From NCBI GenBank assembly GCA_963678675.1, contig OY783196.1:16300138-16364137 (forward strand): 64,000 nucleotides of DNA, written 5' to 3'. This document shows, piece after piece, positions 5,622-51,703 of the stretch (position 1 is the first letter of the stretch; each line of letters opens with the position of its first letter). The notes beneath the pieces are model-generated. The model was not told the DNA's origin, did no database searches, and saw only the letters and a list, made by a program, of their open reading frames with translations. The stretch comes from Xiphydria camelus (Eukaryota; Arthropoda; Insecta; Hymenoptera; Xiphydriidae). Position numbers and translations under genes: made by a program.

Positions 5622-5885
5622 CAATGACCATCACGAATTGTTTCATCACATATAAAGATACCATTTATGACAGTACCCAGGTAACACACTAACGTCGAAA
5701 TGACGTTTTTTGAAGGTCAGTTTTGACGTTAGATGACGAAAAATATGACGTCATTTTAACATCGCAAAGATGGCTTAATTGCACATCCACACGACGTCAG
5801 ACAAATCACGTCATAATGACGTTTTACCGTACGTTTTGATGACGTAAAAAATGACGGTTCTAAAAGGTTAGGTCTGACGTACACC

Positions 5886-6090: not shown

Positions 6091-6104
6091 AGTGTATATC
6101 TTCA

Positions 6105-6172
6105 TCGTGAGCGGTCACCCATCCTATTAGTGTCCGCACTTTTCGCTGCTTAACTTCGTTGATCGGTCGGTG
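6105..6172 (-). other. 5S rRNA-like segment in element A
   Basis: On the minus strand, GATC-ACGAAGTTAAGCAGC is followed about 30 bases later by GGATGGGTGACCGC-like sequence (here GGGATGGGTGACCGC). These match the 5S rRNA region that spans the internal control region (A box to C box). Only about 65 of 120 nt of a 5S gene are present, so it is not a functional rRNA gene. Paralogous segment at 7709-7772. Confidence 0.7.
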
Positions 6173-7990: not shown

Positions 7991-8053
7991 TACCTACTAA
8001 GTCAGTTGATGATAAATGTTAGTTAGTGACTTTTTGCAGGAAGGGGACGATAT

Positions 8054-10344: not shown

Positions 10345-10740
10345 TCATTTGTAACTAACAAAATCATCAAATCGTCCGGGAGGTTTAATACTAGCTCTCG
10401 ATCGCAATGAAGGTCCACAATAATCTGTCGATGCACCGGATGCTCTGTGGCCGGCCCCGGAATCCTGCTCCCCTTCGATTGCCGTTGTTGATTCAGATGG
10501 TGCCTCCGTATGAGACGGAGACTCGTGTCCCTTAGGTATTGCAGGTTGCTCATCCTGCATGAATGGATCATGAACTGGATCCATATAGAACGTCAGTGAT
10601 TCAGATTTTGGTTTGATCAGTTGACTGCGATTTCGACGGTATTCACCACCATCAGACGTTGTCACGACAAATGGCCTTGGGGTTGGATGCTTTGCAGTTA
10701 CTTCTGCCGGTTCAAGTGTTTTGTCTCGTTTTAACAACAC
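10345..10740 (-). pseudogene. Integrase C-terminal tail
   Basis: The frame reads KRDKTLEPAEVTAKHPTP, then RPFVVTTSDGGEYRRNRSQL, which is the chromodomain-less C-terminal DNA-binding region of Gypsy integrases. It continues the integrase at 10731-11426 after a frameshift near 10740 and ends in an acidic/proline-rich tail. Separate from the core only because of the shift. Confidence 0.75.
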
Positions 10741-11426
10741 TTTATCACCAACCTTGAGTTCTGGGAGATTTCTGGCAGACCGATTGTAGTAATACTTTTG
10801 AACAGCCTGTGTTTACCCTGTAACTCTTTCTTGACACCCGTAGGTAGCTTTGGACTCAAATGACTAGTGAGTACTGGTATCTTGGTACGAAGTCTTCGTC
10901 CAGCGCACAGCTGACTTGGACTTACACTCATACCCTTCACCGGTGTGTATCTATAATCCAGTAACATGGTAAATAAGTCGGCATTACCTGTAGCCGCTCT
11001 GCGAAGCATATTTTTTGCAATTTGTACCGCTCGCTCTGCCATTCCGTTTGACTGAGGATACCGGGGACTGGAGGTCGTTAGCTCGATGTCCCACTCTTTG
11101 GCGAAAGTCTTGAACTGGTAGCTGTTGAATGGCATGTTGTCAGATACCAACTCCTCCGGTACTCCCAGCCTTGAGAAGACTTCTTTCAATTTATAAATAA
11201 CAACATCTGCTGTTTTCCTATTAAGCTTGAGTAACTCCAACCACTTGGAATAATAGTCCACTATTACCAAGTACGATGTACCACCGAAATCCAGAATATC
11301 AGTGGCAACTTTCATCCATGGCCTCATAGGAATCTCATGAGATATCGACGGTTCTTTCCTGTTGCTTCGTCTGAGTTGTTGACAAATTGAACAGCCAGAA
11401 ACCATCGACTCTATCTGACTGGACAT
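10731..11426 (-). pseudogene. Integrase core
   Basis: Zinc-binding CC of the HHCC finger (CSICQQL) is followed by the DDE core: first D in VATDILDF with VDYYSKWLEL, second D in LVSDNMPFNS, and E in QSNGMAERAVQ. The histidines of the finger (LHEGHLG) lie in the neighbouring frame 11335-11859, so a shift near 11430 separates them. It would insert the cDNA into the host genome. Confidence 0.9.
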
Positions 11427-11859
11427 GCCGGGCCAAAAAAGTAAACTTCTTGCATTTTTCTTCTCCCAAGTGACCTTCGTGAAGAATTTTCAACATTTCC
11501 CATCGCATAGACGTAGGGACTACTAAGCGGTCCTCCATAAACACCAAGTCGTCATCGACTGAAATTACCTCCCGGTAATTCCAGTACGGCTCAGCTCCCA
11601 GCGTTACAGTCTGTATGTACTCCGGCCAGCCATTTTGGTCATAGTATATTAGCCTCTGGAGAGTTTTGTCGCTTTTTGTTGCCTCCTGAATAGCCCTACG
11701 CTTCGCTGAGCTGACTGCTAGATGCTTGCTGACTGAGTGTACTGCCGCATTCAGCTCTGCATCCTCACACACTGGTGTTCGTAGGAATGCCCTAGATAGA
11801 GTATCTGCCAAAAACATTTGCTTGCCTGGAACATACTGCACAATTAAATTATATCTCAT
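11335..11859 (-). pseudogene. RNase H end and connection to integrase
   Basis: The start, YNLIVQYVPGKQMFLADTLS, is the conserved end of the RNase H domain in Gypsy polyproteins. The middle is the connection region, and LHEGHLGEEKCKKF carries the integrase finger histidines. Frames change at both borders (near 11860 and 11430), so the polyprotein is broken twice here. Confidence 0.85.
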
Positions 11860-13268
11860 CAGCTTATAAGCATTAATTGCATTCGGCCCGATACTTTATT
11901 GATGTCCTTCTTCACAATTGTTACCAGTGGCTTGTGGTCAGTATGTATTGTGACCTGTACACCGTAAACATATTGATGAAAGTGTTGCATTCCAAACACT
12001 ATCGCTAAGAGCTCTTTCTCAATTGGCGCATACCTTTGTTCAGTTTCAGTGAGCGATCTAGAGGCATACACAATGGGATGTGAATCTTGTAACAGCGCAG
12101 CTCCAAGCCCGTGTTTCGAGGCATCTGTCTGTACGGTGAGAGGCTTCTTTGGATCGTAGAATGCCAGAACTGGAGCTGTTGTCAGCTTTTCTTTCAGGAT
12201 TTTAACTGCATCACTCTGCTCACGACCCCATGTCCATTCAGTGTCCTCTTTCAGCAAAACTCTTAACGGTGCAGTTATGACTGACATGTTTGGAATGAAA
12301 CGTGCTAAGTAATTGACTGTACCTAGAAATCGTCTTAACTCGTCCTTATTTGTTGGCTCATCCATGTTGGTTATTGCTCTAACCTTTTCCGGGTCTGGTT
12401 TCAAACCGTCTTTGGAAAAAATATGACCAACATAAGGTACCTCAGTCAACCGAAGTTTCATTTTCTTCTTGTTAAATTTTACATTATTTTCTTTGGCTCT
12501 TTGAAGCACCCTCCTCACTATTTTGTCGTGTTCCTCTTCATTTTCAGCCGCAATAATTATATCATCAGCGACACATGGCACTCCTTCAATGTCACCGAAC
12601 GTTTGTTCGACTCTCTCTTGAAAAACTTCTGGCGCTGGCGCTAAACCAAACGCTAATCTCAAGAATTTGAATCTTCCAAACGGAGTATTAAACACACATA
12701 AGTCTGTACTGCGCTCTGTTAGCTTTAACTGCCAAAACCCATCCTTCATGTCAAGTACTGTGAAAATTTTTTTTCCGTTCATCCTCGCAGCTACATCTTC
12801 GGTCGTTGACATTTTGTACTGTTCCCTCATTATATATTCATTAAGATCACTCGGATCAAGACACAATCGCAGAGATCCGTCCTTCTTTTCAACAATGACT
12901 AGACTATTAACCCATTCAGTTGGTTTATCAACTTTGGCAATAATACCCAGCTTTACAAGTGCTTCTAGAGTGCTCTTCAACTTGTCATGTATAGCGAATG
13001 GTACCTTCCTGGGCGGGTGAACTACTGGTTTGGCATTCGGCCTTATCTTGATATCGTATTCGAAAGGAAACTCCCCCACGCCAGTAAATACCTCCTTAAA
13101 TTCTTCCTCGATTGACTCCAACAGCTTATCACGCTGCACAATATCTACTCTCCTCACTAAATCCAACGCACGGCAACCTGGAAAGCCTAGCAATGGGGTT
13201 GACGCAACATCTACCACTACAAAATCCAGCCTCTCTCTCTCTCTCTCCTTCCATTGTCCCGTTCGCAC
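11859..13268 (-). pseudogene. Reverse transcriptase and RNase H of the Gypsy element
   Basis: About 460 intact codons. RT motifs: WVNSLVIVEKKDGSLRLCLD, FTVLDMKDGFWQL (first Asp), FKFLRLAFGLAPAPEVFQ, and the active site CVADDIIIAA with the DD pair preceded by A instead of the more common Y-x pattern. RNase H follows with VQTDASKHGLG, the catalytic E in APIEKELLA and IHTDHKPL. The N-terminus carries a short run of Arg-Glu from a small GA repeat (13233-13247) beside the frameshift with the protease. Longest clean frame in the window. Confidence 0.95.
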
Positions 13269-13588
13269 ATCAAATTGACCTCCCCGATCGGTTTGACTGT
13301 GAATTCTCCAAACGACGTTAGCGTGGTCCTTGTTTTACCCACATCAAGGTGAAACTCATCCAAAATTTACTTCGAAATAATATTGACTTCAGCACCCGTG
13401 TCCAACTTGAATTTAACGTTTGTTCCTTTAATCTTTAAATCCACGTACCAAGCTTTTCCATTCTCCTCTGAATTCTTCGAGATTTCATCAATAAAAAAAT
13501 GATCCGCCTCAAACTGTTGGTTATTGTCGGAGCTTCTGTAGTTCTCTGATACTTCATTAACAGCACTTTTTTTTGCATACCTTAGCAA
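13268..13588 (-). pseudogene. Aspartic protease of the Gypsy element
   Basis: WYVDLKIKGTNVKFKLDTGA contains the active-site DTGA of retroviral-type proteases. The frame stops at 13367-13369, and the remaining protease sequence (FHLDVGKTRTTLTSFGEF) continues in another frame down to 13268. The upstream frame change coincides with an eight-T run on the plus strand (13567-13574). Confidence 0.85.
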
Positions 13589-13589
13589 A

Positions 13590-13690
13590 ATGATTCAGTC
13601 CTTTACAATTCCTGCATTGTTGTCCGTAAGCCGGACATTTTCTCGGTTGATGCTTATAACCACAGAACTTGCATTCAAAAGTATTCGATG
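13590..13690 (-). pseudogene. Nucleocapsid zinc knuckles
   Basis: Minus-strand translation gives two CCHC knuckles: CKFCGYKHQPRKC (with one residue fewer than the canonical spacing before His) and CRNCKGLNHFAKVC. They lie between gag and protease, where nucleocapsid is expected, in the frame that follows a stop at 13779. Confidence 0.8.
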
Positions 13691-13778
13691 GCTCTGCTTG
13701 CTCTTCAGTTTTCTTACTGCTCTGATGAGGTGTCTTTTTAACTGCACTAACCTCTACTGTTTCTTGTAAAATTTTAAC

Positions 13779-14327
13779 TTATTTATCACTGATTTCATTT
13801 ACTCTGCACATTTCTATAACTTTTTTCAATGTTACATCTGTCTCTCTCAGTAGTCTACGTTGCAAAGCTCTATCTCTTATTCCACAGATTATCCTGTCTC
13901 GAATTAAACCGTCCTTTTGTTCGCCAAAATCACACGTCATTGCTGCTGTTCTCAATGTAGTCAGGAACGTGTCAAAATTTTCACCTTCTTTTTGTGCCAC
14001 TTGAACAAAATTAAACCTCTCTACAGTTTGATTAACTTTTGGCAAGCAATATTTCTCAAATTTTTGCAGAACATCTTTCAAGACTTCAGGTTTTTCATCT
14101 GCGTATTCAAACGTGTTAAAAATTTCCATTGCATCATCACTCAACAAATTAAGTAAGATGGCGACGCGTCTTTTGTCTGTTACCGTTTTGTCAGTGAGTC
14201 CAGTAGCTTCCAAATAATTTTCAAAACTTTTCTTCCAATTTTTCCACACAATATGCAGATCATTCGATCCTTTCAGATCCAACGGGGGTGGCGGTCTTAA
14301 TGACGCCTCAATTCCAATCTTCTACAT
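13779..14327 (-). pseudogene. gag capsid protein
   Basis: The frame 13779-14282 reads MDLKGSNDLHIVWKNWKKSF, then FLTTLRTAAMTCDF and IRDRIICGIRD, the pattern of the Gypsy retrotransposon gag domain. The likely original start is the ATG at 14325-14327, followed by a TAG at codon 2 and then in-frame GIEASLRPPPPL, typical of gag N-termini. Thus the gene is killed at its second codon. It would form the particle shell. Confidence 0.85.
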
Positions 14328-17194: not shown

Positions 17195-17510
17195 AGCCCA
17201 GTAACTTTAGAGTTTCACTTCTCAAAAAGTCGCAGCACAAGCAGGATTTTTGCATACACCTTCATTGAAGTATTATAAATAACGTGTAAAAAGTCCCCAT
17301 CGATATCGTGAACGCTTCAAAAGTTATACGGGGGTCAAAGGTCAAAAAATTGGTTTTTCGTTATTATTTCGCTTGCTATTGGTTGGATGATAATTTTTCT
17401 GGTTACAAAAGTTGTAGATAAAAAAAATACTCTACAAGAAAGGTTTTTACATTTTCCACGTAGGAGTTACCGTTTCCACATTATACGCCGCATAAAGAGT
17501 CAACGTGATG
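17195..17510 (+). repeat. Dispersed repeat R1, copy 1
   Basis: Matches 40248-40560 in inverse orientation over about 310 bp (AGTCCCCATCGATATCG, GGTCAAAAAATTGGTTTTTC, CACGTAGGAGTTACCGTTTC). Non-coding. Confidence 0.85.
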
Positions 17511-17515
17511 AAATG

Positions 17516-17768
17516 TAGCATGGAAGTAAAATCCGGGCTAAGTGCCAAAAAGCAAGTTTTGAGATATGCAGTTCTGAAAGCTAGCAAGCAAGCAAGCTTT
17601 GCAGCAAGCAAGATTCTTGTGGCAATTAATTGAACTAGATTTTGAAGGATCTAGACATAGCCCATTTTTTACAGCGTATTGGGGTTTTTACATAGTCCAC
17701 TTTTTAGCACTTAACTCAATTTTTCATATTCTGGCACTTAGCCCGGATTTTACTTCCATGCTACAAAT
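17516..17768. mobile_element. 253-bp hairpin-ended MITE
   Basis: TAGCATGGAAGTAAAATCCG followed by GGCTAAGTGCC at 17517-17550 is inverted at 17730-17766. Contains a short AGCAAGC tandem run (17581-17612). Confidence 0.8.
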
Positions 17769-18032: not shown

Positions 18033-18390
18033 TACTACAGGCAACAGAAATGTTATCTTAAGAATCGATTATAAATACCTCGCCGACCTGGAGTTAATCT
18101 CGCCATCGAAAAAGGAGTACAATTTGACGAACGTAGGTTGCGGTCATGGTCCCGCACTTATCCCGGAAAGATTAATTAATTACCTAACGGTGTTCGGAAA
18201 AGTCCGTCTTTTGCAGAACTTCATTAATCGATTCCGTTATAATTCGAACGTTAATTCAGCCTTGTAAGGAGGAGAAATTACGAATTCAATAGATGACTAA
18301 TCGGCTCCTCGATCCTTTTCCAACTTTCGCCAGACTCGCGGGAGAGTATGGGCACCCTTTGCCTCTGTTAACCCCGCCGCACATTGATAG

Positions 18391-19122
18391 TCCAGTAAAA
18401 ATAGCTCTGAACCTAACATTATGAGTCTCCTGGCTGAATTTGAGATTGAAGTTACATGAAGGTGTTTCAAAACTAGCCCCAAAATTCCAATATTCGCAAC
18501 CCCTCGGAAGCCGAGAAAAATAATAAAAACCACCCCCGGAGACCATTTTTTTTTAAATATTTCGCGAAGACTAAAGAAAATGAAAAAATTGTTTAAATAA
18601 AAGTTGTAAAGTAGGTGAAAATACGTAAAAAAGTTCTATGACTTTTTCATTTTTATGCAATATCCTAAGCGCTATGAGGGGATAAGATGTTGGAATAATT
18701 CGAAGACTTTAAAAAATCGTAAGAAATTGAAAAATGCATATTTGTTACTTTCTTTTATATCAATTCACGTAGAAAGGTTGAATCTACATTCTCAGAGAAT
18801 TTTTTTTTATTTTGAGCATTTTGTATTAACAGTATCGTTCTTCAAAATTTTTACATTTCAAAATTTGTACAAGAACATTTTTTTTTTTAATTTTAAAAAT
18901 CACCATTCGATTCCTCGTAAAATCACCTTCAGAAAAGTTCTTGGTGACTTTTTCGAACAGGCTATATTTTTCGAGATACGTTTAATTAAAGTTTCGGGGA
19001 GAGAGTTCTTATTTTACAACCACGGGCCGAAGGACAGAAATATATGTCCGCTCCGTTCCCACCGGTCCGATGGAACGCACATGCGTCAGCACCTAAGCAG
19101 AATGAATGGAAGTGAGAAGAAA
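18391..19122 (+). repeat. Dispersed repeat X, copy 1
   Basis: Starts with TA then GTCCAGTAAAAATAGC. Related copies at 38308-39013 (inverse) and 50995-51570. Shared blocks include CCACCCCCGGAGACCAT, ATCCTAAGCGCTATGAGG and GTTTCGGGGAGAGAGTTC. All copies end near CATGCGTCAGCACC. Frames inside are not conserved proteins. Confidence 0.85.
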
Positions 19123-20350: not shown

Positions 20351-20644
20351 CTAAATAAAATCTTTTTCGTCATCTTCGTTTTCAGTGGGTTCAAATATAT
20401 TGCTACAAGACTGTCCTTGACATTGCCCACACAGATTTGAACAGTTTAGACCAGATTTCTTACACTTACACAGCTTTCCACAATCAGTCTTACAATTACA
20501 GAATATCAATTTTAGGATGAATTCTGGTGCAATTGGTTTGTTGGTCGTTATTGGTAAAAGAAGATCTCCCTGGTTTCTCCATCCCCAAGAGGTAGCTTCC
20601 AACTCATTTTCCAGCCATTCCTGGATTTGATAATATACCCTCAA
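20351..20644 (-). pseudogene. CXC cysteine-rich C-terminus
   Basis: FCNCKTDCGKLCKCKKSGLN followed by CSNLCGQCQGQSC gives the regular Cys spacing of Tesmin/TSO1-like CXC domains, which bind DNA through zinc. Before it is YYQIQEWLENELEATSWGW, conserved in the copies at 28517-30014. The acidic tail (EPTENEDDEKDF) also has a counterpart there. Confidence 0.75.
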
Positions 20645-21060
20645 ACACTGTGCTGAGCGGCTGCGTCTGTTGTCGGTGGTAAAGAAGCTAATGAGAAGTT
20701 TGTACTTAAACTCTGTCTTGATACATTGTTATGAAATTTGAAAAAGCGTAGCTGATTTAGCATTTTTACTGACTTTCCGGCACCATACAAAGCCAATAGA
20801 AACTCTTCTCCAATAGCAACTATAGCCTTCTTATCTGCAGTGGGATTTTTAAAAATGGCTACTTTGGCTTGTAGGTCCTGATGTTTCTCTAAAAGCCTAT
20901 ATGTAGACAACTTTCCTTTTTTATAAATTGCCGAGGTAGTATCACATCCAGAAATGGCATGGGAAAATAAAATCGAAGCACGCATAGTACCTATCTTATT
21001 TTGAAGCGCATTTATGTTCGTTGTTTTATTAGGTTTTGCAGTTTTGCCGGGTCTTAACAT
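20641..21060 (-). pseudogene. Linker block with HAISGCDTTSAIY
   Basis: The region between nuclease and CXC. The block ILFSHAISGCDTTSAIYKKG looks strongly conserved in style (invariant-looking GCDT). LLEKHQDLQAKVAIFKNP matches LEKNPALQKSVSIY at 29240-29300. The start and end overlap the neighbouring frames, showing small indels at 21060 and 20642. Confidence 0.65.
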
Positions 21061-21656
21061 ATAAATATATTGTCCGTTTTTGATTTGAATAACAGTAATA
21101 CCATTAAATCAGTATCTTCGCCAACCAATGTTACCGATTTTTCTAACTTTCTTGCTTCAAGAACTTTCTTCACTATGAGTGTATCTGCATTCCCATTTGC
21201 TTGGAAAACTTTAATACCAGCTGTTTCGAGATGTTGGCTTAGTTGTGAAATAAACAACTTTTTATTGTTTTCATTTGAAAAAAATCGGGGCTGATTAATG
21301 ATTGCCATGTTGTCCTCAGAAAACACAATGTCAGAGCACGTGGTTCTTTCATATCGACGTATTTGTTCTTGCATTTTTGTAGAAAGGTAATTTCCATACC
21401 CATCAAAAACAACAAAACATTTTTTCCCATAATTATAAAAGATGTAATTTACATATTGCTTATATATGACACTGTAAGTTGCCGGAAATTGCCAATTAAT
21501 TTTATGAAGCAAGTATCCGCCATCAATTACGAAAAAAGTATTTTCAGGAATGATATGCGATGGCGTGCATTTCTTATCAAATAATCCAAGCAATGCTGAT
21601 TTTTTTGTTTTTTGGAAAGTTCCATTATCGAATAGCGACAATGGATATGGTGCCAA
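21054..21656 (-). pseudogene. FEN1/XPG-like PIN nuclease domain
   Basis: Acidic motifs appear in the order expected for the XPG/FEN1/asteroid group: FFVIDGGYLLHK, KCFVVFDGYGNYLSTK, then ANGNADTLIVKK and VTLVGEDTDLMVLLL. The last two resemble the metal-binding E/DAD and SEDSD-like signatures. One expected acid may be N (GNAD). Family members cut structured DNA using two metal ions. The match is by motif, not by search. Confidence 0.6.
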
Positions 21657-21733
21657 CTCATAGCATAAACACTCCTTTAAATCTTCTTGGGATTGATAAG
21701 TACATAAAATTCTATTAAAAAGTTGACTTGGGT

Positions 21734-23128
21734 TTACTGGGGGAGAGACTGATTATAAATTTTTACCGTTTTCTGGAGAAATGAAAAATTCTTTACTTTA
21801 CTTGACCTTTTGAGCTTCAATTCATAAAAATTTTTACCAGCAAGGTTTTTTGTGATAGATTCACCCAATTCACGAGCTGAGTCATAGTTAATTTGTTCTT
21901 TGGCCACTATTCCTGACGCTAGTGAAATCAGCTCGGGAGTTTCTCGATGAAAAGGAGAATTATTATTTACCCATTCTAGAAGCTTTGTAACATCATTCCT
22001 ATCTCGCCGCTCTCGAGATTCTCGTAGCTCAATATGTTGTTCCGAATAAATAGCTTTGGTTCCAGAAAACGTTTCTATAGCATCAGAAACTTTTGAATAC
22101 TCGGGCATGGAAGAAACCCATTTGGCTAGAGTACTTTCAGTTAGTCCTCGACCTCGAGTTAACCCGCCTTCTGCTTTTAAAGATCTCATAATTACCTGCT
22201 CTATTGTCATATCAGTCCAAATACCAGAGTAGAATTTATTGTTTGTTCTTCGGATAGTAAAAAAGTTTCGAAAATGTTGATATTCTTGTGGATCCAAGGT
22301 ACCTGATATATTCTTCATCTGCTGGAAATATATATGGGTCGATTTGGCATAGGGTAAATGCCCAGTTGCATGAAAAATTGGTATCATAGAACGAACGCAA
22401 TACAAGTGTAAGTTTAAATCTCCTGACCTCTCTACCCGAATAAACATTTTCGCAAGTTCAACCAACTCCCAATATAGAACCCAGAGTTTAGCAGTCATAC
22501 TCTTCTGACTTTGTGTCAAAAATTGATTTTGAATCTCATTTAAAATATGTTCAACAGATGAATTTTTCAATTCTTCCTCTGTTTTCGAGTACAGTTCTTT
22601 AATTTCATAGCAGATTTCGTCGTCTATATCCCAGTATTTTAACACATTCAAAGAAAGAACTAATTGCGTGAGTAAATGTGCACGTACTGCTCTCGAAAAA
22701 GAATGCCCATTAATCATTGCAGGAATACTGTTTTTTGCGTATATGATATTCCACATTTCTTCAAGCCCACTTCCTGTCATTATATATCCAATTGATCCCA
22801 GAAAAGACATTAACATGTGGAAACCTCCCAAGCGTATGATGAGACATTTAAGGTTGCTATTATCTTCTGCCGCTAACACCATTTCTACAGCCTTGATATA
22901 CAATGGTTGGTCAAAGGTCACGAAGCAAATTTGTTGTCCTTGTTTTTTAGTTTGGCTTGCAGCAAACTGTAATGCCGAATGAATTGTCGTTAAATTGCTG
23001 GGCTCCAAATTTATAAACGGCACGGGTAGTACACAGGTAACTTCGAAGTTACCAGTGACAGCAGCTGACATAAATCCGCTCCAAGATGGCCTACGTTCAA
23101 GTTCACATAAATGGGATGTCATCCACAA
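21734..23128 (-). pseudogene. Middle region of the nuclease/CXC protein (464 codons)
   Basis: A long clean frame. Recognisable conserved-looking stretches: ICFVTFDQPLYIKAVEMV, RLGGFHMLMSFLGSIGYIMT, GSGLEEMWNIIYA and YCVRSMIPIFHATGHLPYAK. I recall similar uncharacterised proteins in many invertebrate genomes but cannot name a domain. Its length without stops suggests inactivation was recent or the region is under constraint. Confidence 0.6.
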
Positions 23129-23146
23129 GCAATTATGTAGTTTTAG

Positions 23147-23380
23147 TTATTTCAGTCTTCCCTCGGGTAAATCAAAAATTACTGATTCGGCATTAATATT
23201 CTTAAGACCCAAAGAATTTTTTCGATAGGGCACAAGTGGAAGGAAGCCGAATTTACTGATATCTCTTGCTTTTGGTATATTCTTTGGCCGAGCTACATTA
23301 CCCGGTAACGAAATTGCACTACTCGGCGATACACACACATGCCGCCCATACAGTGAAATGTGTCGTATCCATCAAGAGTT
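23147..23380 (-). pseudogene. Continuation downstream of the piggyBac insertion
   Basis: Minus frame TLDGYDTFHCMGGMCVSPSS joins exactly to DNADFNI of the 24366-24831 frame when the piggyBac element and one TTAA are removed. This proves the insertion is inside the coding sequence. Confidence 0.75.
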
Positions 23381-23384
23381 TTAA

Positions 23385-24361
23385 CACTAAACATACCGGT
23401 ACTTTACACCTACCTATTCTTACCATGAGGGGTCATTTGACCCCTTATGAAATAAATGTTTATTTTCAGAAAGAAATTCCTAATTTATTAAAGGAAATAA
23501 TTTGCAACATAATTTATGATTTCTAATAAAATAATCAAACACATATTTTTATTTCTGTAAGCAAAATAATCAATTAATTCCTTCTTTTACAGATAGTTGG
23601 TTTCTCCTTCGCACATTTCCCGCAGACAAATCTTTTACACATTATACAAGTTTGAATTGTATTATTGCCTGTGCACAATCTTACTTGACATTTCTTCCAT
23701 GATTGCGAATTATTGTTGGAACTGCTTGGTATTCCTTCTGGTTGGTTTTCTTTTTCTTCTTCGTAAAATTTGTGGTGTTACAGTAAGACAGAAGGCCAAT
23801 TAAATATAACAGAAATTGTCACAATGTAATGGAAACTGTCATGTCACTCCTTGTCGAACTTGATTTATTATACGCTCTGATCTTTGCTCTTTGACTCAAT
23901 ATACGACTGCATTTCTATTTCGTTTAGCTATAGAGAACTAGCAGTATACTGGGAGGGAGCAGTGCTTGTTTCTCCGATAAGAGTCTTGTTTGTTTGTGCG
24001 TTATGTCATATGGACCCGATCCGGCCGTCCAAGTGCTCGCGCCGAAACCAAACACATATATGAGGTTTAGATAAATAGAACCTTCATTTCAGAAGCATAT
24101 TTGAGTTTAGAACTAAGGAGAACTGCCGACAAATACGTAAACTTCGTATGGGGTCAAATGACCCCTCGTGGTACGTAAGGTAGGTAAAGAATTTTTCGCT
24201 ATAAAAAATAAGCTACGAGAAAAAGGGAGAGCGAGAAATTGAATAATCAGATGATATAAGAATTTACAGAAAGTCAAATGAACGAAAGAAATAACAATGA
24301 ATGTACGATTTTAAAGTAAATTTTGAAAGGGGTCATTTGACCCCGCTTGGTACGTTTAGTG
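23385..24361 (-). mobile_element. piggyBac-derived element with TTAA duplication
   Basis: TTAA flanks at 23381-23384 and 24362-24365; ends CACTAAACATACCGG and CACTAAACGTACC inverted. Three copies of the 16-bp palindrome GGGGTCATTTGACCCC (or GGGGTCAAATGACCCC) lie near 23429, 24151 and 24337. The body keeps a transposase C-terminal finger (23574-23780). It interrupts the nuclease/CXC gene. Confidence 0.9.
23574..23780 (-). pseudogene. piggyBac transposase C-terminal cysteine-rich domain
   Basis: Minus translation gives SWKKCQVRLCTGNNTIQTCI, then MCKRFVCGKCAKEKPTIC and a stop at 23574-23576. The C-x-x-x-x-C and CxxC pairs match the ring-like finger ending piggyBac transposases. The catalytic domain is absent. 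Confidence 0.75.
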
Positions 24362-24365
24362 TTAA

Positions 24366-24831
24366 TATTGAAATCGGCGTTATCAAATACGAATTGTTGA
24401 TAGGCATTTTGCGTAAGTTGATACCCACTGCTAGAAACAGCTGAGGCTTCAAATTTGAGAATTTCCTTGTATGATACACAGAATCCCAAAGCCGAAAGAT
24501 AGTCAATTAAGTTTTTCGAACCGTACTTCCGATGCATGTGTACCCCAGTTCCAAACAAAACTGGCGATAGGTAAGATCTTGGCCTTACAGCCGAAATCAA
24601 TGAATTGGCTATTGCTATCTCTTTTTGATTCTTTTCACCAATTAATGTAAATAAAAAGGAAAGCAATGAAGAGGGTATGCCTTGAATTCCGCCTTCTGAA
24701 ATTTCTTCTGCTGTCGGATACTTATCTAGTATGTAATATTTCGACCGGATGTCTTCCTTTAAAATTTTAGCAGCACCCAAGATTATTTTTTCACGTTTTT
24801 CGGAACAGCTTAGTTTTGTGTCAGTAAACAT
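24366..24831 (-). pseudogene. Nuclease/CXC gene segment upstream of the insertion
   Basis: Frame with YLSPVLFGTGVHMHRKYGSK and LSALGFCVSYKEILKFE, ending QFVFDNADFNI at the TTAA. It precedes the block at 23147-23380 in the same protein. Confidence 0.65.
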
Positions 24832-24936
24832 TTCATTAAGAATTTCAGTATTATTACCTTTGAAACAGAAAATTATTGGGTGGAATCGTTTTTCTATGAG
24901 TATTAGTTCTACATCGTAGTGTTCAAGTAACTTTTT

Positions 24937-25634
24937 TTAAATATATTTAGGAGTCCAAAGTTCAATATCATTATCTTCGGCTAGTTCTTGCAGTTTAGAA
25001 AGTATATCAGTCATAGTAAATTGGCATATACTTTCTTTGGCGTCATCAATGTATGCACATAATTTTTTAAATAAATTTATGTTTTTTGTATCCAGCGGGC
25101 GCCCTTTATCTAGCGTACGTTTATGGATAAACGTACCAAAACAATTTTGGTGATAACGAGCCTCTGCGGCAACAAGGTCTATTTCGGTTTCAATTCGATG
25201 GCGCACTTGTTGTCCCCATTCATCATGTCTCTGTATACAGTGCTTTAAAATCGTGTCCTTTTAATGGATAAGGTACTCACAATACAAACTTTTTGCATAC
25301 TCTTTTTTCGGATACTCACATTTGTGGCACAAAACAGACAATCAGTTTTAAAGTTAATTTTTTCAGTTACGGATCGTCTTACCGACGTAGAAGGTAGATT
25401 TGATTCATCCTGGGGATTGCTTTTTGCATTCATACCAGCTTTAATACTTGTAGATCTTGTGTAATCTCGTCTACATTTTTCATGCAATACAATCAAATTT
25501 ATATTTTGGAAAACAGCCCACTTTCCATCATCTCTAACTTGACTTGCTTTTATTAATGTATCGATCCCTTTTTTATAAACGTTTACTGTTTTTGATAGAC
25601 TTAAAGATTGGCCACAAATAGTACACAGATCCAT
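24937..25634 (-). pseudogene. N-terminal zinc-finger region of the nuclease/CXC gene
   Basis: Starts MDLCTICGQSLSLSKTV, then LIVLHEKCRRDYTRS, a C-x2-C...H-x3-C finger, and a second pair TDCLFCATNV. After a shift near 25245 comes RHRIETEIDLVAAEARYHQN. The copy at 39645-40160 has the same order (CFICGKSLSVGDTV, VTIHIDCRKDYTRK, HDLAAAEARYH), which confirms both the start and the family. Confidence 0.75.
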
Positions 25635-25795
25635 TTCGAGCTCTGTAACGTAAAAGAAGATTGCTTTGAATGAGATAATACTTGAAATTTAATATCGGTT
25701 TTAATAGCTCCATTAATTGGCCGATGTAGTTGTATAGTAAGCCACTCAAAACAACATAACCCCAAAAAGCACCGAGCCTCAAAAATTAATATTAA

Positions 25796-25880
25796 CACGT
25801 TAACTGCCACGGATGGTTCACGTGGCTCGAATGAATATGTCACTTGTGAATCACGCATGATTCACATGGCAGTTAACGTG
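25796..25880. mobile_element. 85-bp piggyBac-type MITE
   Basis: TTAA at 25792-25795 and 25881-25884 bracket inverted ends CACGTTAACTGCCA. TTAA targets are typical of piggyBac. Among the shortest elements here. Confidence 0.85.
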
Positions 25881-25884
25881 TTAA

Positions 25885-26355: not shown

Positions 26356-27244
26356 TAGTCCAGTAAAATTTCCGTTTAAATCGAAAATTGTGACGTAATG
26401 GTGAAAACTTGACAAAAGCTTGACTTGACTTGACTTGATTGATGTTATTAATAGAGGGAACATGTTAAAAGAAGTATCACCCCCGGCGACGGCTGTAAAA
26501 AATTTATTTATTGTTGAAAAATCGGTTCTTCGCTGATATTTTGAAAAATACGTGACTTATTGAAAAATAGTTTGGACAAAAGTTGTAGATCATGAAATTA
26601 TCTATAAAAAAGGTTATTACATTTTTACTCTATCTTCAACCCCTAAGAAACTAGGACCTCCAGATGAGTTGGAATTTTCAAATATTCATTACAAATGCAA
26701 AAGTTAACATTCTTACAATTTTTCTTTCTACAACTTGTCTAGAAAAATGTCATCTTTTTTCCTAGCGAAACCGAATTTTTTTTTTCAGTGCTGTTTAACA
26801 CTAATTGATGTTTAAAGTTGTCAATTTCTCAATTCACATCGAAATGTACAATAAAAAAATTTTTTAATTATACCATCGTTTATTTCGGATTCTTTCTGAA
26901 AGAAAAGATAGATAGCAATTGAACGTATCTTGCCTGGTTTGTAAGATATGCTCAATTGAAAAGGAGGGAGATTTATGCGATGAGCACCACTAGCTTGAGA
27001 CAGACATATAGTGTCGCACCGTTCTCACTCTCGTCGCCCTGACGTTTGTGTGCGCGCGCTGCTGCAGTTGCTGCGAGTGTCAGTGAGACAGAGAGTTGCT
27101 CTAAGCGTTTTGGAGTAACTTATGCTCCCTTGCAGGATAGACGAAAATCGGAAGGCCGTTTTCGTAGCATCGCGACCATGAATACCTCGCAGAGCTAGTA
27201 GCCAAGGCAATATGCATTATCTTATTTCCATTATCTTTTTTCCA

Positions 27245-27965
27245 GTGCCTCCTAGGTAAAATGTAGTTTTATAAAAATTGTAGAGGATACGATTCTCTAC
27301 AAGTTTTGTTTAACATTTTTTTCTCTCAAACAAATAATTTCAGAGTTACGCTTAACTAAACTAGAGCACTTTTCCTACAGTTGCATTACGTACCCTTTTA
27401 AATCCGATTCTTTGGCATTATCTTCTTTCCATCGCCTCCTAGGTAAGAGGTAGTTACATAAAAATTATAGAGGAGACAATTCTCTACAAGTTTTGGTTAA
27501 CATTTTTTTCTTTCAAATAAATAATTTTAGAGTTACGCTTAAGTAAACTAGAGCACTTTTCTTACAGTTGCATTACGTATCCTTTTCAATCCGATTCTTT
27601 GGCATTATCTTTCCATCGCCTTCTAGGTAAGAGGTAGTTACATAAAAATTATAGAGGAGACAATTCTCAACAAGTTTTGTTTAACATTTTTTTCTTTCAA
27701 AAAAATTATTTCAGAGTTACGCTTAAGTAAACTAGAGCACTTTTCTTACAGTTGCATTCACCTACCCTTTTCAATCCGATTCTTTGGTATTATCTTCTTT
27801 TCATCGCCTCCTAAGTAAGAGGTAGTTACATAAAAATTATAGAGCAGACAATTCTCTACAAGTTTGTTTAATATTGTTTTCTCTCAAACAAATAATTTCA
27901 GAGTTACGCTTAAGTAAACCGGAGCACTTTTCTTACAGTTGCATTCACGTACCCTTTTCACTCTC
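27245..27965 (+). repeat. 185-bp tandem repeats, left arm (4 units)
   Basis: CAGTTGCATT recurs at 27378, 27565, 27749 and 27936 (spacing 184-187). Each unit also has TTTCAGAGTTACGCTTAA, CGATTCTTTGG and AAGAGGTAGTTACATAAAAA. Confidence 0.93.
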
Positions 27966-28516
27966 AACTTCGCTAATTACTGATTCATTATGTTTTCATA
28001 ATCAATTGTACTCGTTTCCACACCACCATGAGGTAGAGTAAACGGCGCGTTTTTTTTTTTATCGTAGTTTCCCCAGTAGGCCTATTCCACAACTGTGTCG
28101 TTCTAGTGTGCAGTTTTCGAAACTAGTTCGTATTGTTTTGTTCAGTTTTAATTCTGAATAAAATAATTGCAAAGCGTGAAATTTGAACATTAGACATTTC
28201 AAGCAGAAATTATGTATTTTTATTTAAAGCATAGAGAAATCCATAATTCGACAGCGTGAAATGTTGGAATATTACTGTATTTATGGTAGTTAGGAACAAA
28301 ACAAGAAAAAGAATTTTATATTCGGAAGCAAACCACCAATTTCATTGGTAGTATAACGCTCCAGCTTGTGTTCTGTTATGGAAATATTTAAAATGAAGAA
28401 TAAAAAATTATTTGGACTTCTCCAATCGAAGTGGATCGACATGGATTACTCATCCGACATCGGAATATTTCTGGAAGAACTACTGGAATATTATTTGTTT
28501 TAGATGCATAACATTA

Positions 28517-29247
28517 TTAGTACTCAAAATCGACTTCCATAAAGTGAACATCGTCATCACTTCCATGTCCACCAGTTTCAGCAAACATTTCTACATCTTC
28601 CAAATTTGGTTGCATTTCTTCATCTTCTGAATCTGTGTCTTCAGAATCATCCAGCGTGAAATTTTTACAGGTTTGACCGTTCCAATTCTTACAAACATGA
28701 GTGCAATGGAGGCCACTTCTCTTACAACGACATCTACTTGTGGCACAGTCACCTTTACAACCGTAAAAGATCTGAAAATGAGAAAACATTCAATTAAAAT
28801 TTTCATGAAAAAGGGTGGAAAATTATTGGATAATCTTTGTTGCACTACTTTTCTTTGATAACATGAAGATAAATGTAGGAAGAAAAATTATTTATATCTT
28901 TTTGTAGGAGCCACAAAAATTAATTACCTTTTTGAGCAACTCTTTCGGAGCTAATTCTGCGCGTTGAATCACTGGAAGGAGCATTATGGTGGTTCTCCTC
29001 CATCCCCAATCCTCAGCGTTTAATTCTCGTCCTTGCTATGTTTGAACTTGGTAATACACCCTCTTGGTATGTTCATGAAGTGCAGATGGAGTTGGTGGTA
29101 ATGAGAAGCTAGTGACATTTTCTTCTTGGCGGTGGTAACAAGTGATACAAAAAGCTTATATCGCATTTCATTAATAGGTTCCTTGTCGCGATCACATTTG
29201 TTGAATACAAGTGCTGGATAATAAAAAGGGAAGAGAAGTATGTTCAA
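28517..29247 (-). pseudogene. CXC-domain C-terminal exons, left arm
   Basis: Mirror of 29317-30014. The last exon (28517-28771) encodes GCKGDCATSRCRCKRSGLHC, the acidic tail and the end EVDFEY. A 156-bp intron with GT/AG borders separates it from the exon up to 29247. The two arms differ by a few bases in the exon, e.g. KNWNGQTC here versus KNCNSQTC on the right. An in-frame TAG breaks the upstream exon. Confidence 0.75.
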
Positions 29248-30014
29248 AATACTAGAAAAAAATCCAGCTCTGCAGAAATCTGTATCTATTTATATCCCAT
29301 CGCTGAGGAAGTTATATAGCACTTATATTCAACAAATGATCGCGACAAGGAACCTATTAATGAAATGCGATATAAGCTTTTTGTATCACTTGTTACCACC
29401 GCCAAGAAGAAAATGTCACTGGCTTCTCATTACCACCAACTCCATCTGCACTTCATGAACATACCAAGAGGGTGTTTTACCAAGTTCAAACATAGCAAGG
29501 ACGAGAATTAAACGCTGAGGATTGGGGATGGAGGAGAACCACCATAATGCTCCTTCCAGTGATTCAACGTGCAGAATTAGCTCCGAAAGAGTTGCTCAAA
29601 AAGGTAATTAATTTGTGAGGCTCCTACAAAAAGATATAAATAATTTTTTTCCCTACATTTATCTTCATGTTATCAAAGAAAAGTAGTGCAACAAAGATTA
29701 TCCAATAATTTTCCACCCTTTTTCATGAAAATTTTAATTGAATGTTTTCTCATTTTCAGATCTTGTATGGTTGTAAAGGTGACTGTGCCACAAGTAGATG
29801 TCGTTGTAAGAGAAGTGGCCTCCATTGCACTCATGTTTGTAAGAATTGCAACAGTCAAACCTGTAAAAATTTCACGCTGGATGATTCTGAAGACACAGAT
29901 TCAGAAGATGAAGAAATGCAACCGAATTTGGAAGATGTAGAAATGTTTGCTGAAACTGGTGGACATGGAAGTGATGACGATGTTCACTTTATGGAAGTCG
30001 ATTTTGAGTACTAA
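29240..30014 (+). pseudogene. CXC-domain C-terminal exons, right arm
   Basis: Coding begins in the palindrome centre (LEKNPALQKSVSIY) and reads KKMSLAS, then ALHEHTKRVFYQVQT, a TAG where the relative at 20351 has W, ELNAEDWGWRRTTIMLLPVI and ELAPKELLKK. Donor GT at 29604-29605, acceptor AG at 29758-29759. Splicing restores frame into ILYGCKGDCATSRCRCKRSG, the CXC domain, and an acidic tail to 30014. The homologous region of the 20351-25634 copy has no intron here. Confidence 0.75.
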
Positions 30015-30559
30015 TAATGTTATGCATCTAAAACAAATAATATTCCAGTAGTTCTTCCAGAAATATTCCGATGTCGGATGAGTAATCCATGTCGATCCAC
30101 TTCGATTGGAGAAGTCCAAATAATTTTTTATTCTTCATTTTAAATATTTCCATAACAGAACACAAGCTGGAGCGTTATACTACCAATGAAATTGGTGGTT
30201 TGCTTCCGAATGTAAAATTCTTTTTCTTGTTTTGTTCCTAACTACCATAAATACAGTAATATTCCAACATTTAACGCTGTCGAATTATGGATTTCTCTAT
30301 GCTTTAAATAAAAATACATAATTTCTGCTTGAAATATCTAATGTTCAAATTTCACGCTTTGCAATTATTTCATTCAGAATTAAAACTGAACAAAACAATA
30401 CGAACTAGTTTCGAAAACTGCACACTAGAACGACACAGTTGTGGAATAGGCCTACTGGGGAAACTACGATAAAAAAAAACGTGCCGTTTACTCTACCTCA
30501 TGGTGGTGTGAAAACGAGTACAATTGATTATGAAAACATAATGAATCAGTAATTAGCGA

Positions 30560-31665
30560 AGTTGAGAGTGAAAAGGGTACGTGAATGCAATTGTAAGAAA
30601 AACGCTCTGGTTTACTTAGGCGCAACTCTGAAATTATTTGTTTCAGAAAAAAATTGCCAAACAAAACTTGTAGAGAATTATCTCCTCTATAATTTTTATG
30701 TAACTACCTCTTACCGAGGAGGTGCTGGAAAGAAGATAATGCCAAAGAATCGGATTGAAAAGGGTACGTGAATGCAACTGTAAGAAAAGTGCTCCAGTTG
30801 ACTTAAGCGTAACTCTGAAATTATTTGTTTGAGAGAAAAAAATATTAAATAAACTTGTAGAGAATTGTCTCCTGTATAATTTTTATGTAACTACCTCTTA
30901 CTTAGGAGGCGATGAAAAGAAGATAATGCCAAAGAAGCGGATTGAAAAGGGTACGTGAATGCAACTGTAAGAAAAGCGCTCCAGTTTACTTAAGCGTAAC
31001 TTTGACATTATTTGTTTGAGAGAAAAAATGTTAAACAAAACTTGTAGAGAATTGTCTTCTCTATAATTTTCATGTAACTACCTCTTACCTAGGAGGCAAT
31101 GGAAAGAAGATAATGCCAAAGAATTGGATTGAAAAGGGTACGTAATGCAACTGTAAGAAAAGTGCTCTAGGTTACTTAAGCGTAACTCTGAAATTATTTG
31201 TTTAAGAGAAAAAATTTTAAACAAAACTTGTAGAGAATTGTCTCCTCTATAATGTTTATATAACTACCTCTTACCTAGGAGACGATGGAAAGAAGATAAT
31301 GCCAAAGAATCGGATTGAAAAGGGTACGTGAATGCAACTGTAAGAAAAGTGCTCCAGTTGACTTAAGAGTAACTCTGAAATTATTTGTTTGAGAGAAAAA
31401 AATGTGAAGCAAAACTTGTAGAGAATTGTCTCCTCTATAATTTTTATGTAACTACCTCTTACCTAGGAGGCGATGGAAAGAAGATAATGCCAAAGAATCG
31501 GATTGAAAAGGGTACGTAATGCAACTGTAGGAAAAGTGCTCTAGTTTAGTTAAGCGTAACTCTGAAATTATTTGTTTGAGAGAAAAAAATGTTAAACAAA
31601 ACTTGTAGAGAATCGTATCCTCTATAATTTTTATAAAACTACATTTTACCTAGGAGGCGCTGGAA
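30560..31665 (-). repeat. 185-bp tandem repeats, right arm (6 units)
   Basis: The GCAACTG landmark (or GCAATTG) recurs at 30587, 30774, 30961, 31147, 31334 and 31521 (spacing 186-187). Same unit as 27245-27965, opposite strand. Confidence 0.93.
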
Positions 31666-32654
31666 AGAAGATAATGGAAATAAGATAATGCATATTGCCT
31701 TGGCTACTAGCTCTGCGAGGTATTCATGGTCGCGATGCTACGAAAACGGCCTTCCGATTTTCGTCTATCCTGCAAGGGAGCATAAGTTACTCCAAAACGC
31801 TTAGAGCAACCCTCTGTCTCACTGACACTCGCAGCAACTGCAGCAGCGCGCGCACACAAACGTCAGGGCGACGAGAGTGAGAACGGTGCGACACTATATG
31901 TCTGTCTCAAGCTAGTGGTGCTCATCGCATAAATCTCCCTCCTTTTCAATTGAGCATATCTTACAAACCAGGCAAGATACGTTCAATTGCTATCTATCTT
32001 TTCTTTCAGAAAGAATCCGAAATAAACGATGGTATAATTAAAAAATTTTTTATTGTACATTTCGATGTGAATTGAGAAATTGACAACTTTAAACATCAAT
32101 TAGTGTTAAACAACACTGAAAAAAAAAATTCGGTTTCGCTAGGAAAAAAGATGACATTTTTCTAGGCAAGTTATAGAAAGAAAAATTGTAAAAATTTTAA
32201 CTTTTGCATTTGTTATGAATATTTGAAAATTCCTACTCATCTGGAGGTCCTAGTTTCTTAGTGGTTAAAGATATAGTAAAAATGTAATAATCTTTTTTGT
32301 ACATAATTTCATTATCTACAACTTTTGTCTAAGCTATTTTTCAATAAGTCACGTATTTTTCAAAATATCAGCGAAGAACCGATTTTTCAACAATAAATAA
32401 ATTTTTTACAGCCGTCGCCGGGGGGTGATACTTCTTTTAACATGTTCCCTCTGTTAATAACATCAAAACATAGCTTTTGTCAAGTTTTCACCATTACGTC
32501 ACAATTTTCGATTTAAACGGAAATTTTACTGGACTATATAATGGGACTTATGGTGGGAATGTTTACGTGGCGAACTATCGACATCGACCATGCATCGAAT
32601 ATCGTCCTAATATTTATCCGTCTCCACTTGCATTTAGCCGCCTAGCATACGCCT

Positions 32655-37184: not shown

Positions 37185-37372
37185 GCCGCGCTAAACGGAG
37201 CACGCTGTTGCCACATTACCTTACACATTGTACCTAAGTGCGTCGTGACAACACTGTATCAGCGTTTGTCGGAGAGCTACTCGCACTGGGCGGCTCGGCG
37301 CCGCTTTTCTGTTCGCTCGGACAAGTGGTCGAGCTAAGTGATCTAACAAGGAGAGGCTGCGAGTTTCGGAAC
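37185..37372 (+). repeat. GC-rich flank shared with 62845-63660
   Basis: Inverse matches: GTTTGTCGGAGAGCTACTCG, GCGGCTCGGCGCCGCTTTTC, GATCTAACAAGGAGAGGC appear at 62870-62985, and GGAGCACGCTGTTGC at 63660-63680. Confidence 0.8.
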
Positions 37373-37510
37373 AGGCATTTTTACGTTTTTTTTCTCCCTT
37401 AACAAAACCCCAAAATATTTTGTTTCCGAAAACGCCTTAGAAATAAAGAAAATCGCATCAAAGAATTCCATGATTGGTATGTATAAGTTCCGAAAATCTG
37501 GTCTCACACA

Positions 37511-37583
37511 GGAGCCCTCGCGTGGCTCATCGGGTAGCGTGCGTGACTTCACGCGGCGGGCATGCGTTCGAGTCCCAAGTGTC
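37511..37583 (+). other. tRNA-like module (family A, left arm)
   Basis: A box TGGCTCATCGGGTAGCG (37523-37539), B box GCGTTCGAGTCCC (37564-37576), then TTTTTTTT, a Pol III terminator-like run. The anticodon stem is damaged compared with the copy at 51870. Confidence 0.65.
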
Positions 37584-37878
37584 CTTTTTTTTAACAAAAT
37601 TATTTTTAACGCAATGTCCTTTGACAGTATGCAATAAATTTTCATAATCTTAAAAACGAAATGAAAAGCAATGCTATTGCACATTAAAAAAATATTCAAT
37701 TTTCAATCATTGCTTGTAGCAGAGGGAAATGACAAGCAATGATTGAAAATTGAATATTTTTTTTAAATCTGCAATTGCATTGTTTTTCATTTCGTTTTTA
37801 ATTCGATCCATTTAATTATGAAAATTTATTGCATACTGTCAAAGGACATTGCATTAAAAATAATTTTGTTAAAAAAAA

Positions 37879-37953
37879 GAACACCGAGACTCGAACGCGT
37901 GCCCCACCGCGTGCGAGTCACGCACGCTACACGATGAGCCACGCGACGGTTCT
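37879..37953 (-). other. tRNA-like module (family A, right arm)
   Basis: Minus strand: TGGCTCATCGTGTAGCG, stem GCGTGCG/CGCACGC and B box GCGTTCGAGTCTC, followed by a T run. Mirror of the left module. Confidence 0.65.
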
Positions 37954-38144
37954 TGAGATTGGATTTTTGGAACTTATACATACCAATCCTGGAGTTCTTT
38001 GATGTGGTTTTTTTTATTTCTAAGGCGTTTTCGGAAAAAAATACTTTGGGGCTTTGTTAAGGGCGTCAATCCCTACTGACAGAAAAAAATCGTAAAAATG
38101 CCTGTATGACTGTATAGTACGTAGCGCGCCATTCTTCAGCTTCG

Positions 38145-38311
38145 GTGCTGGGCCCCCTTTCTCGAGTCACTCCCAAGAGAAATTTATACGTTTTTATTAG
38201 CGAGTAGACCAATCAGGACCCCCACTATAACGGAATACTTGATCCTGATTGGTTTATTGGCTAAAATGCGTGTTCGTAACTTTGCGAGTGACTCGAGAAA
38301 GGCCCCCCATG
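38145..38311. mobile_element. MITE with CTCGAGTCACT ends
   Basis: CCCCCTTTCTCGAGTCACT at 38153-38171 is inverted at 38288-38311. The interior GCGAGTAGACCAATCAGGAC recurs at 8348-8367. Confidence 0.75.
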
Positions 38312-39013
38312 ACGCATGCGCGCTCCACCGGAGCGGTGGGAACGGAGCGGACATATATTTCTGTCCTTCGGCTCGTGGTTGTCAAATAAGAACTCTCTCC
38401 CCGAAACTTTAATTAAACGTATCTCGAAAAATATAGCCTGTTCGAAAAAGTCACCCAGAACTTTTCTGAAGGTGATTTTACAAGGAATCGAATGGTGATT
38501 TTTAAAATTTTGTAAAATAATGTTCTTGTACAAATTTTGAAATGTAAACATTTTGAAGAACGATACTGTTAATACAAAATGCTTAAAATAAAAAAAAATT
38601 CTCTGAGAATGTAGATTCAACCTTTCTACGTGAATTGATATAAAAGAAAGTAACAAATATGCATTTTTCAATTTCTTACGACTTTTTAAAGTCTTCGAAT
38701 TATTCCAACATCTTCATCCCCTCATAGCGCTTAGGATATTGCATAAAAATGAAAAAGTCATAGAACTTTTTTATGTATTTTCACCTACTCTACAACTTTT
38801 ATTTAAACCATTTTTTCATTTTCTTTAGTCTTCGCGAAATATTTTAAAACAATGGTGTCCGGGGGTGGTTTTTATTGTTTTTCTCGGCTTCCGAGGGGGT
38901 GTGAATCTTGAGATTTTGGGGGTAGTTTTGAAACACATTCATGTAACTTCAATCTCAAATTCAGCCATGAGACTCAAAATGTTAGGTTCAGAGCTATTTT
39001 TGCTGGACTACAG
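38308..39013 (-). repeat. Dispersed repeat X, copy 2
   Basis: Inverse of 18391-19122, ending at GCTGGAC followed by TA (39014-39015). Frames in it are not conserved proteins. Confidence 0.85.
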
Positions 39014-39644: not shown

Positions 39645-40160
39645 ATGGCGAATGATTGCTTTATTTGTGGTAAATCCCTTTCGGTCGGCGATACCGTGAT
39701 TGTTGAGCGTGGTTTAGAAACTGTGAGAAATGCTAGTATCGACAGAAATGAGAGACACTTTGAATATTTAAATAATATGAATTGTGTGACTATCCATATT
39801 GACTGTCGCAAAGACTATACTCGAAAGAGTATCATTGCGGCATTCAAAAGACAGCAAGATGAAGCCAAGGCTAGTACATCACAGAGATCTCTACGGAAAG
39901 TACGTGTAAGTACTTTTAATTTTAAGAAATTATACTTTTTTTGCGGAGAAGAAGCTAATGAACAAATTGAGAAAAGAAAAAGGCAAGAGCTAAGGAGAAA
40001 TATAAAGCAAGTAAGCACAATTTCTATGAAGGACTCAGTTATTAAAATAGCAGAAGATCATGATGACAGTTACGGAAGAACTGTCAAAAATCGAATTCAT
40101 TTGGAACATGATTTAGCTGCCGCTGAGGCTAGATATCACGATATTGGGGAACCCATGTAA
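39645..40160 (+). pseudogene. Second copy of the nuclease/CXC gene, N-terminal 170 codons
   Basis: MANDCFICGKSLSVGDTVIV opens the frame; then VTIHIDCRKDYTRKS (finger), a basic helix KRKRQELRRNIKQVS, and NRIHLEHDLAAAEARYH. It aligns in order with 25634-25100 of the larger copy. The frame departs from homology after RYH (about 40138) and stops at 40158-40160, so the 3' part is lost. The start ATG is supported by the homologous MDLCTICG start. Roughly 13% of the expected full length. Confidence 0.7.
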
Positions 40161-40247
40161 AAAAAACACTCCTTATATTCTACCTCGAAGGTGGTGGGGA
40201 AACGAATGTATGACTATTGAAGCACTACATACATATTCATCACGTTG

Positions 40248-47620: not shown

Positions 47621-47626
47621 AATATA

Positions 47627-50990: not shown

Positions 50991-50994
50991 ATAA

Positions 50995-51570
50995 GCCGAG
51001 AAAAACAATAAAAACCACCCCGGACACCATTGTTTAAAAATATTTCGCGAAGACTAAGAAAATGAATAAATTGTTTAAATAAAAGTTGTAGGGTAGGTGA
51101 AAATACGTAAAAAAGGTTCTATGATTTTTTCATTTTTATGCAATATCCTAAGCGCTATGAGGGAATGAAGATGTTGGAATAATGCGAAGACTAAAAAACC
51201 GTAAGAAATTGAAAAATGCATATTTGTTACTTTCTTTTTTATCAATTCACGTAAAAAGGTTGAATCAACATTCTTGGGGATTTTTTTTTATTTTAAGCAT
51301 TTTGTACTAACAGTATCGTTCTTCAAAATTTTTACATTTCAAAATTTATACATTATTTTTAAAAATTAAAAAAAACACCATTCGATTCCTCGTAAAATCA
51401 CCTTCAGAAAAGTTCTCGGTAACTTTTTCGAACAGACTATATTATTCGAGATACGTTTAATTAAAGTTTCGGGGAGAGTTCTTATAGGGGCCGAAAGGAC
51501 AGAAATATATGTCCGCTCTCCGTTCCCACCGGTCCGGTGGAGCGCGCATGCGTCAGCACCTACGCTGAAT
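50995..51570 (+). repeat. Dispersed repeat X, copy 3 (partial)
   Basis: Direct relative of 18500-19100 (AAAACCACCCCGGACACCAT, AAGCGCTATGAGGGAATG, CATGCGTCAGCACC), lacking the GTCCAG end. Confidence 0.85.
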
Positions 51571-51703
51571 GAAAGGAAGTGAGAAGAAAGGAATGCAAGT
51601 GAGAAGAAAGATCTTGACCTCTCTCTGGCTTCGTGAAAACCGAGAGATTCCTTCAATTTCGTCTTTCGGGACGAATTGGCATGGCGCGCTAGGTACTATG
51701 CGG

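Follow-up and report, generated by a model that had tools for sequence, protein, structure and literature searches.

The window analysed here, 64,000 nucleotides of the hymenopteran Xiphydria camelus (contig OY783196.1, positions 16,300,138 to 16,364,137), carries at three loci the remains of mobile elements that are very probably decayed AcademX-type DNA transposons, a kind that has already been described. Because the combination of a DDE transposase with a nuclease distinguishes AcademX in print, this assignment is the most likely one. The original prediction had seen in the same stretch a repeated gene family joining a zinc finger, an XPG/FEN1-type nuclease and a CXC domain, possibly an undescribed mobile element in which a nuclease stands where a transposase would be.

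The central evidence is a decayed gene, copy 1, whose nine segments, all on the minus strand, match a protein profile with E-values from 2e-190 to 2e-4. The profile, 1456 positions long, was built from 29 long relatives of 1,371–1,524 residues (alignment A1). The features of copy 1 are as follows.

20363..25634, minus strand: decayed transposase gene (copy 1), nine segments covering profile positions 4-1446 of 1456
24967..25634, minus strand: N-terminal Cys/His-rich region, profile positions 4-225
22196..24387, minus strand: DDE-like transposase core, split by an insertion; placed by motif positions, conservation and the predicted fold of relative P0001
23381..24365, no strand assigned: 981-bp insertion within the DDE-like core, with TTAA flanks and inverted ends CACTAAAC..TACC
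20932..21740, minus strand: XPG/FEN1-type nuclease region, with motifs IDGG, FDGY, GNADT, GEDTD and GCDTTS; supported by the predicted fold of relative P0123
20405..20500, minus strand: CXC end with nine cysteines, placed by motif positions and cysteine conservation in relatives

The domain order is therefore that listed, from an N-terminal zinc-finger-like region through the DDE-like core and the XPG/FEN1-type nuclease to the CXC end. The DDE-like triad consists of the D of FDNAD (24373-24387), the D of TFDQP (22904-22918) and the E of IEQ (22196-22204). The open frames lie on the minus strand, and the interval 21054-21656 contains 11 stops when read on the plus strand. Judged from its sequence, copy 1 is dead, because its coding frame is disrupted by frameshifts, in-frame stops and the nested insertion, and because one conserved nuclease aspartate, the first of the two in the DAD motif, is read as Asn in GNADT. 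The insertion is presumably piggyBac-like, a family name that we take from its TTAA flanks and end pattern. Immediately upstream of copy 1 lies a short TTAA-bounded inverted-repeat element (25792-25884).

The protein belongs to a widespread and well-conserved family. With a 470-residue middle piece as the query, 464 proteins matched at E <= 1e-3. When the disrupted protein was read through and its last third was used for scoring, 84 of the 7,982 scored candidates matched, and many of these 84 are single frames of 1,400-1,500 residues without interruption. A third protein search gave 205 matches. Among the matches listed (the best 120 of 464 and the best 120 of 205 for the first and third searches), the named insect sources include flies, ants, wasps, moths, butterflies, beetles, thrips, aphids, a mayfly and a stick insect, and the others a spider, an annelid, a bivalve and an octocoral. 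The third search also returned P0224, from the rust fungus Austropuccinia psidii, which is 44% identical to P0150 and reflects either contamination or horizontal transfer. No relatives were found in viral contigs (92 pattern-matching stretches, none confirmed) or in prokaryotic genome contigs (90 stretches, none confirmed). The D, D, E triad is kept in 116 of the 117 long relatives by a profile-based count, all seven acidic nuclease positions in 111/117, and all nine CXC cysteines in 105/117, the latter being invariant in 29/29 rows of the alignment; the N-terminal Cys pair is kept in all 55 relatives with a letter at that position. Every checked catalytic and cysteine residue is retained in 99/117, again counted with the profile, which was itself built from 29 of the same 117 proteins. 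This count supersedes the 56/117 obtained when all motifs were written into one strict regular expression, since that expression held residues and spacings tightly.

Pfam returned no match above its curated cut-off for ten pieces of the window, and searching PDB sequences with one piece or with the profile yielded nothing of use. For the DDE-like domain of P0001, the first 15 of the 50 structural matches listed are all DDE enzymes, led by hAT (Hermes), Transib and RAG1, at 7-11% identity in those 15 alignments. These models support the reading of the middle domain as an RNase H-like DDE transposase core with a helical insertion, a build shared with the hAT, Transib and RAG1 transposases; unlike these, the present proteins carry additional XPG and CXC parts. 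Membership in hAT itself finds no support in the 29 relatives, where hAT Pfam models have no match at E <= 0.01, or in the palindrome described below, whose flanks, CGAGTATG and TATAATGG, differ and thus show no 8-bp duplication. Within the DDE-like region, PF20231 (DUF6589), a family of unknown function, overlaps part of the domain in 6 of the 29 long relatives at E <= 0.01; of the tested proteins with a match (5/6), two pass the curated cut-off. Its position therefore suggests that PF20231 is a transposase core; no mention of DUF6589 was found in the literature searched.

For the second catalytic domain, the model of P0123 supports an XPG/FEN1 fold: its matches share the FEN1/EXO1 fold and ordered acidic motifs at 11-19% identity in the 50 rows listed. 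Both the fold and the order of acidic metal sites are those of the FEN1, EXO1, XPG and XRN nucleases, from which the domain differs in being part of a transposon protein. We take the motifs to be equivalent to FEN1 D34, D86, E158-E160, D179-D181 and D233, and assume the FEN1 motif order likewise. The combination of zinc finger, XPG/FEN1 motifs and CXC end that the original prediction had read in one broken gene is thus present, and the nuclease fold that it had proposed to check is supported by the relative's model. Its idea of a nuclease in place of a transposase is unsupported, because a DDE-like domain precedes the nuclease in the same protein. The outcome it had named as fatal, a fold search returning a DDE transposase, did arise for this neighbouring domain but not for the nuclease domain. 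The DDE-like domain, the common termini and the Asn in GNADT had all escaped it. An element moved by the XPG/FEN1 enzyme alone, without a transposase, consequently appears barely credible: the convincing nuclease fold and its conserved acidic positions speak for such an enzyme, but the protein that carries them also contains a DDE-like domain whose D, D, E triad hardly varies.

Evidence for mobility comes from the borders, which are common to the loci. The terminus TAGTCCAGYAAAA, a pattern picked after the alignment of the ends had been viewed, occurs exactly at four sites in the window belonging to three loci (18388, 26356, 32536 and 39010, the middle two being the ends of the palindrome), compared with 0/100 shuffles. 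With two mismatches allowed, nine sites were found against 4.5 expected, and nine were reached in 5/100 shuffles. Three copies of a terminal repeat were recognized outside the palindrome.

18388..19122, plus strand: terminal repeat 3' of copy 1, with its outer end TAGTCCAGTAAAA, an exact terminus, at 18388; 95% identical to inverted 39010-38310
38310..39010, minus strand: repeat that pairs in inverted orientation with the one at 18388, its outer end lying at 39010; placed by alignment and terminus
50993..51589, plus strand: third terminal-repeat copy without the outermost part, 89% identical to 18508-19122

The first two align in inverted orientation over 702 columns, and among candidates for the opposite end of the element containing copy 1, the 38310-39010 repeat is the strongest. 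An attractive reading would make 18388-39010 a single element of 20.6 kb that encloses the palindrome as a nested insertion; the 95% identical inverted ends favour it, although a matching target duplication is lacking. Around copy 1, a generic scan for inverted repeats, with the 25 longest of 110 pairs listed, was dominated by an AT run. Just inside two of the three terminal-repeat copies lies a palindromic repeat (37371-38132 and 51681-52255), which may belong to the 5' end of this terminal-repeat family.

The second locus is a large palindrome, composed as follows.

26356..32536, no strand assigned: palindromic derivative of 6,181 bp, both borders TAGTCCAGTAAAA, flanks TATG and TATA
26356..29194, no strand assigned: left arm, with 99% complementarity to the right arm over its inner 1,143 nt and about 95% over its outer part
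29337..32536, no strand assigned: right arm, defined by complementarity to the left arm
27229..27960, no strand assigned: 187-bp tandem repeats of the left arm, 3.9 units
30569..31676, no strand assigned: 187-bp tandem repeats of the right arm, 5.9 units
28613..29187, minus strand: C-terminal coding piece of the left arm, profile 1314-1450, outermost segment weak (E-value 0.19)
29320..29918, plus strand: mirrored C-terminal piece of the right arm, profile 1307-1450, outermost segment weak (E-value 0.009)

The arms are separated by 142 nt, and each contains the final stretch of a transposase gene, about 140 profile positions, with a GT..AG intron-like gap in between. The outer arm is distantly akin to the 18388 repeat (59% over 497 columns, 77% over 267). 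On the best reading, the palindrome is a fold-back derivative that arose by head-to-head duplication of a related element's 3' end, CXC exon included; long terminal inverted repeats with internal tandem repeats make up most of it. Fold-back elements of Drosophila offer parallels: the terminal inverted repeats of Tetris contain tandem repeats of about 220 bp (PMC4079207), and those of Galileo are internally repetitive (PMC3573991). The palindrome resembles both in its long inverted arms with internal tandem repeats; it differs in that its arms additionally carry coding sequence for the CXC end of a DDE-XPG-CXC family gene.

The third locus consists of an N-terminal piece and the sequence that adjoins it.

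39651..40142, plus strand: N-terminal piece (copy 3), profile 5-165, of a lineage different from that of copy 1
40142..40224, plus strand: stretch resembling the 3' non-coding part of a palindrome arm, 71% identical to 28078-27991 over 89 columns (E-value 1e-7, local comparison)

Since the coding piece runs straight into palindrome-like 3' non-coding sequence, this is probably an internally deleted copy. Copy 1 shares 61/153 identical residues with copy 3 at the N-terminus and 37/80 with the palindrome at the CXC end, and on these identities its lineage is distinct from both. Copy 3 and the palindrome are not separable by coding sequence, because no coding region is common to the two. A further repeat, 17217-17517 and 40230-40528 (93% identical, inverted), adjoins the deleted-looking copy with its second copy and is weakly similar to the palindrome's outer arm; it is possibly an end of copy 3's lineage.

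The additional pieces that had been predicted at 28517-30014 and 39645-40160 are accordingly recovered as profile matches, in the palindrome arms and at 39651-40142. The count of four pieces at three loci holds, but two of them are mirror images within one palindrome, and the divergence given above does not allow the pieces to be taken as copies of one element. The proposal of a mobile element is well founded, given the common termini, the long inverted repeats, the deleted-looking copy, the palindromic derivative and the relatives in several phyla. These same derivatives and termini, together with the fused DDE-like domain and the spread over distant phyla, make a duplicated host gene family (an asteroid-like XPG protein) with pseudogenes highly improbable, even though the length of the protein and the intron-like gap in one lineage would suit it.

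The assignment to AcademX was weighed against published descriptions. Within Academ, AcademH makes 9-10-bp and AcademX 3-4-bp duplications, lengths that a 2023 paper citing Kojima 2020 ties to the helicase encoded by AcademH and the nuclease encoded by AcademX (PMC10045372). The present elements likewise combine a DDE-like core with an element-encoded nuclease, so that, going by this passage, neither the label "undescribed" nor the view that no standard superfamily uses such an enzyme finds support. In a bivalve survey, Academ stands among the DDE/D superfamilies, and its curated elements average 5,565 bp (PMC10294476), which fits a gene of 1,450 residues; Academ has also been reported in whitefly and aphid (PMC9143410, PMC9783078), while a search of PMC3985635 for the name gave no passage. 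Terminal inverted repeats are present as well, with identical ends on both sides of the palindrome, and the inverted pair around copy 1 provides candidate ends of a single insertion. The AcademX nuclease is XPG-like; no paper in the literature searched contained both "Academ" and "XPG" as whole words. AcademH would be of the same superfamily, if the Academ assignment holds, and differs in its helicase and longer duplications as described (PMC10045372). Helicase Pfam families had no match in the 29 relatives at E <= 0.01, and no helicase model was found among the best 120 of 205 proteins in a search aimed at helicase-bearing Academ relatives.

Several observations weigh against AcademX. The 3-4-bp duplication is not demonstrated at these loci: the four-bp flanks of the palindrome, TATG and TATA, match at three of four positions, those of 18388 and 39010, TTGA and CAGG, do not match, and neither pair establishes a target duplication. 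TA is constant at all four ends. The AcademX passage says just "nuclease" and leaves a CXC end unmentioned (PMC10045372). A Foldseek search with the DDE model alone was not significant, listing scattered RNase H-fold nucleases (RNase T, NurA, RuvC) at E-values of 0.7 or worse. The flanks, the constant TA and the wording of the passage would suit a new DDE superfamily, distinct from Academ, with its own acquisition of the XPG nuclease and the CXC end. We regard this as quite unlikely, as DDE plus nuclease is the distinction published for AcademX, and as the surveys listing Academ (bivalves, Capitella, whitefly, aphid) probably include this family, because it is so widespread in insects and also occurs in an annelid and a bivalve.

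The window is rich in fold-back structures. A Tc5/pogo-like transposon (54050-57796; DDE_1, Transp_Tc5_C) has 886-bp inverted arms that are 98.9% identical; its left arm holds the C-terminal coding part, so that this inverted repeat, too, includes transposase coding sequence. Further long inverted repeats lie at 47623-48721, 57882-59879 and 5673-7993 (about 87-97%). A Gypsy-like retrotransposon with reverse transcriptase, RNase H and integrase occupies 10731-14321 on the minus strand, and an open reading frame at 1746-2369 resembles, by eye, the endonuclease of long interspersed nuclear elements, with no Pfam match at E 0.001.

The domain order, the conservation of all three sites, the common ends and the decay are observed, and together with folds predicted on relatives they suggest how an AcademX-type element of this kind may work. 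Its product would be one protein of about 1,450 residues with a zinc-binding N-terminus, an RNase H-like DDE core, an XPG/FEN1-type nuclease and a CXC end. Cutting and joining of the element ends would most likely fall to the DDE core, trimming or resolving branched or flapped intermediates of excision or integration to the nuclease, and binding of element DNA to the zinc-finger-like region and the CXC part. A bolder and unlikely, though not far-fetched, proposal is that this two-nuclease DDE, XPG and CXC transposase forms a lineage apart from the Academ elements described so far; transposition would require the flap-type nuclease, which would also set the length of the target duplication, and fold-backs duplicating the CXC exon, with 187-bp satellite-like arrays, would be a regular by-product. 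In all likelihood, the striking mix of domains noticed in the bare sequence comes from a kind of transposon that has been described but little studied. Its well-conserved protein family provides material for asking what role the extra nuclease plays in transposition, and the palindrome clearly exemplifies how such an element can give rise to a fold-back structure that contains satellite-like repeats.
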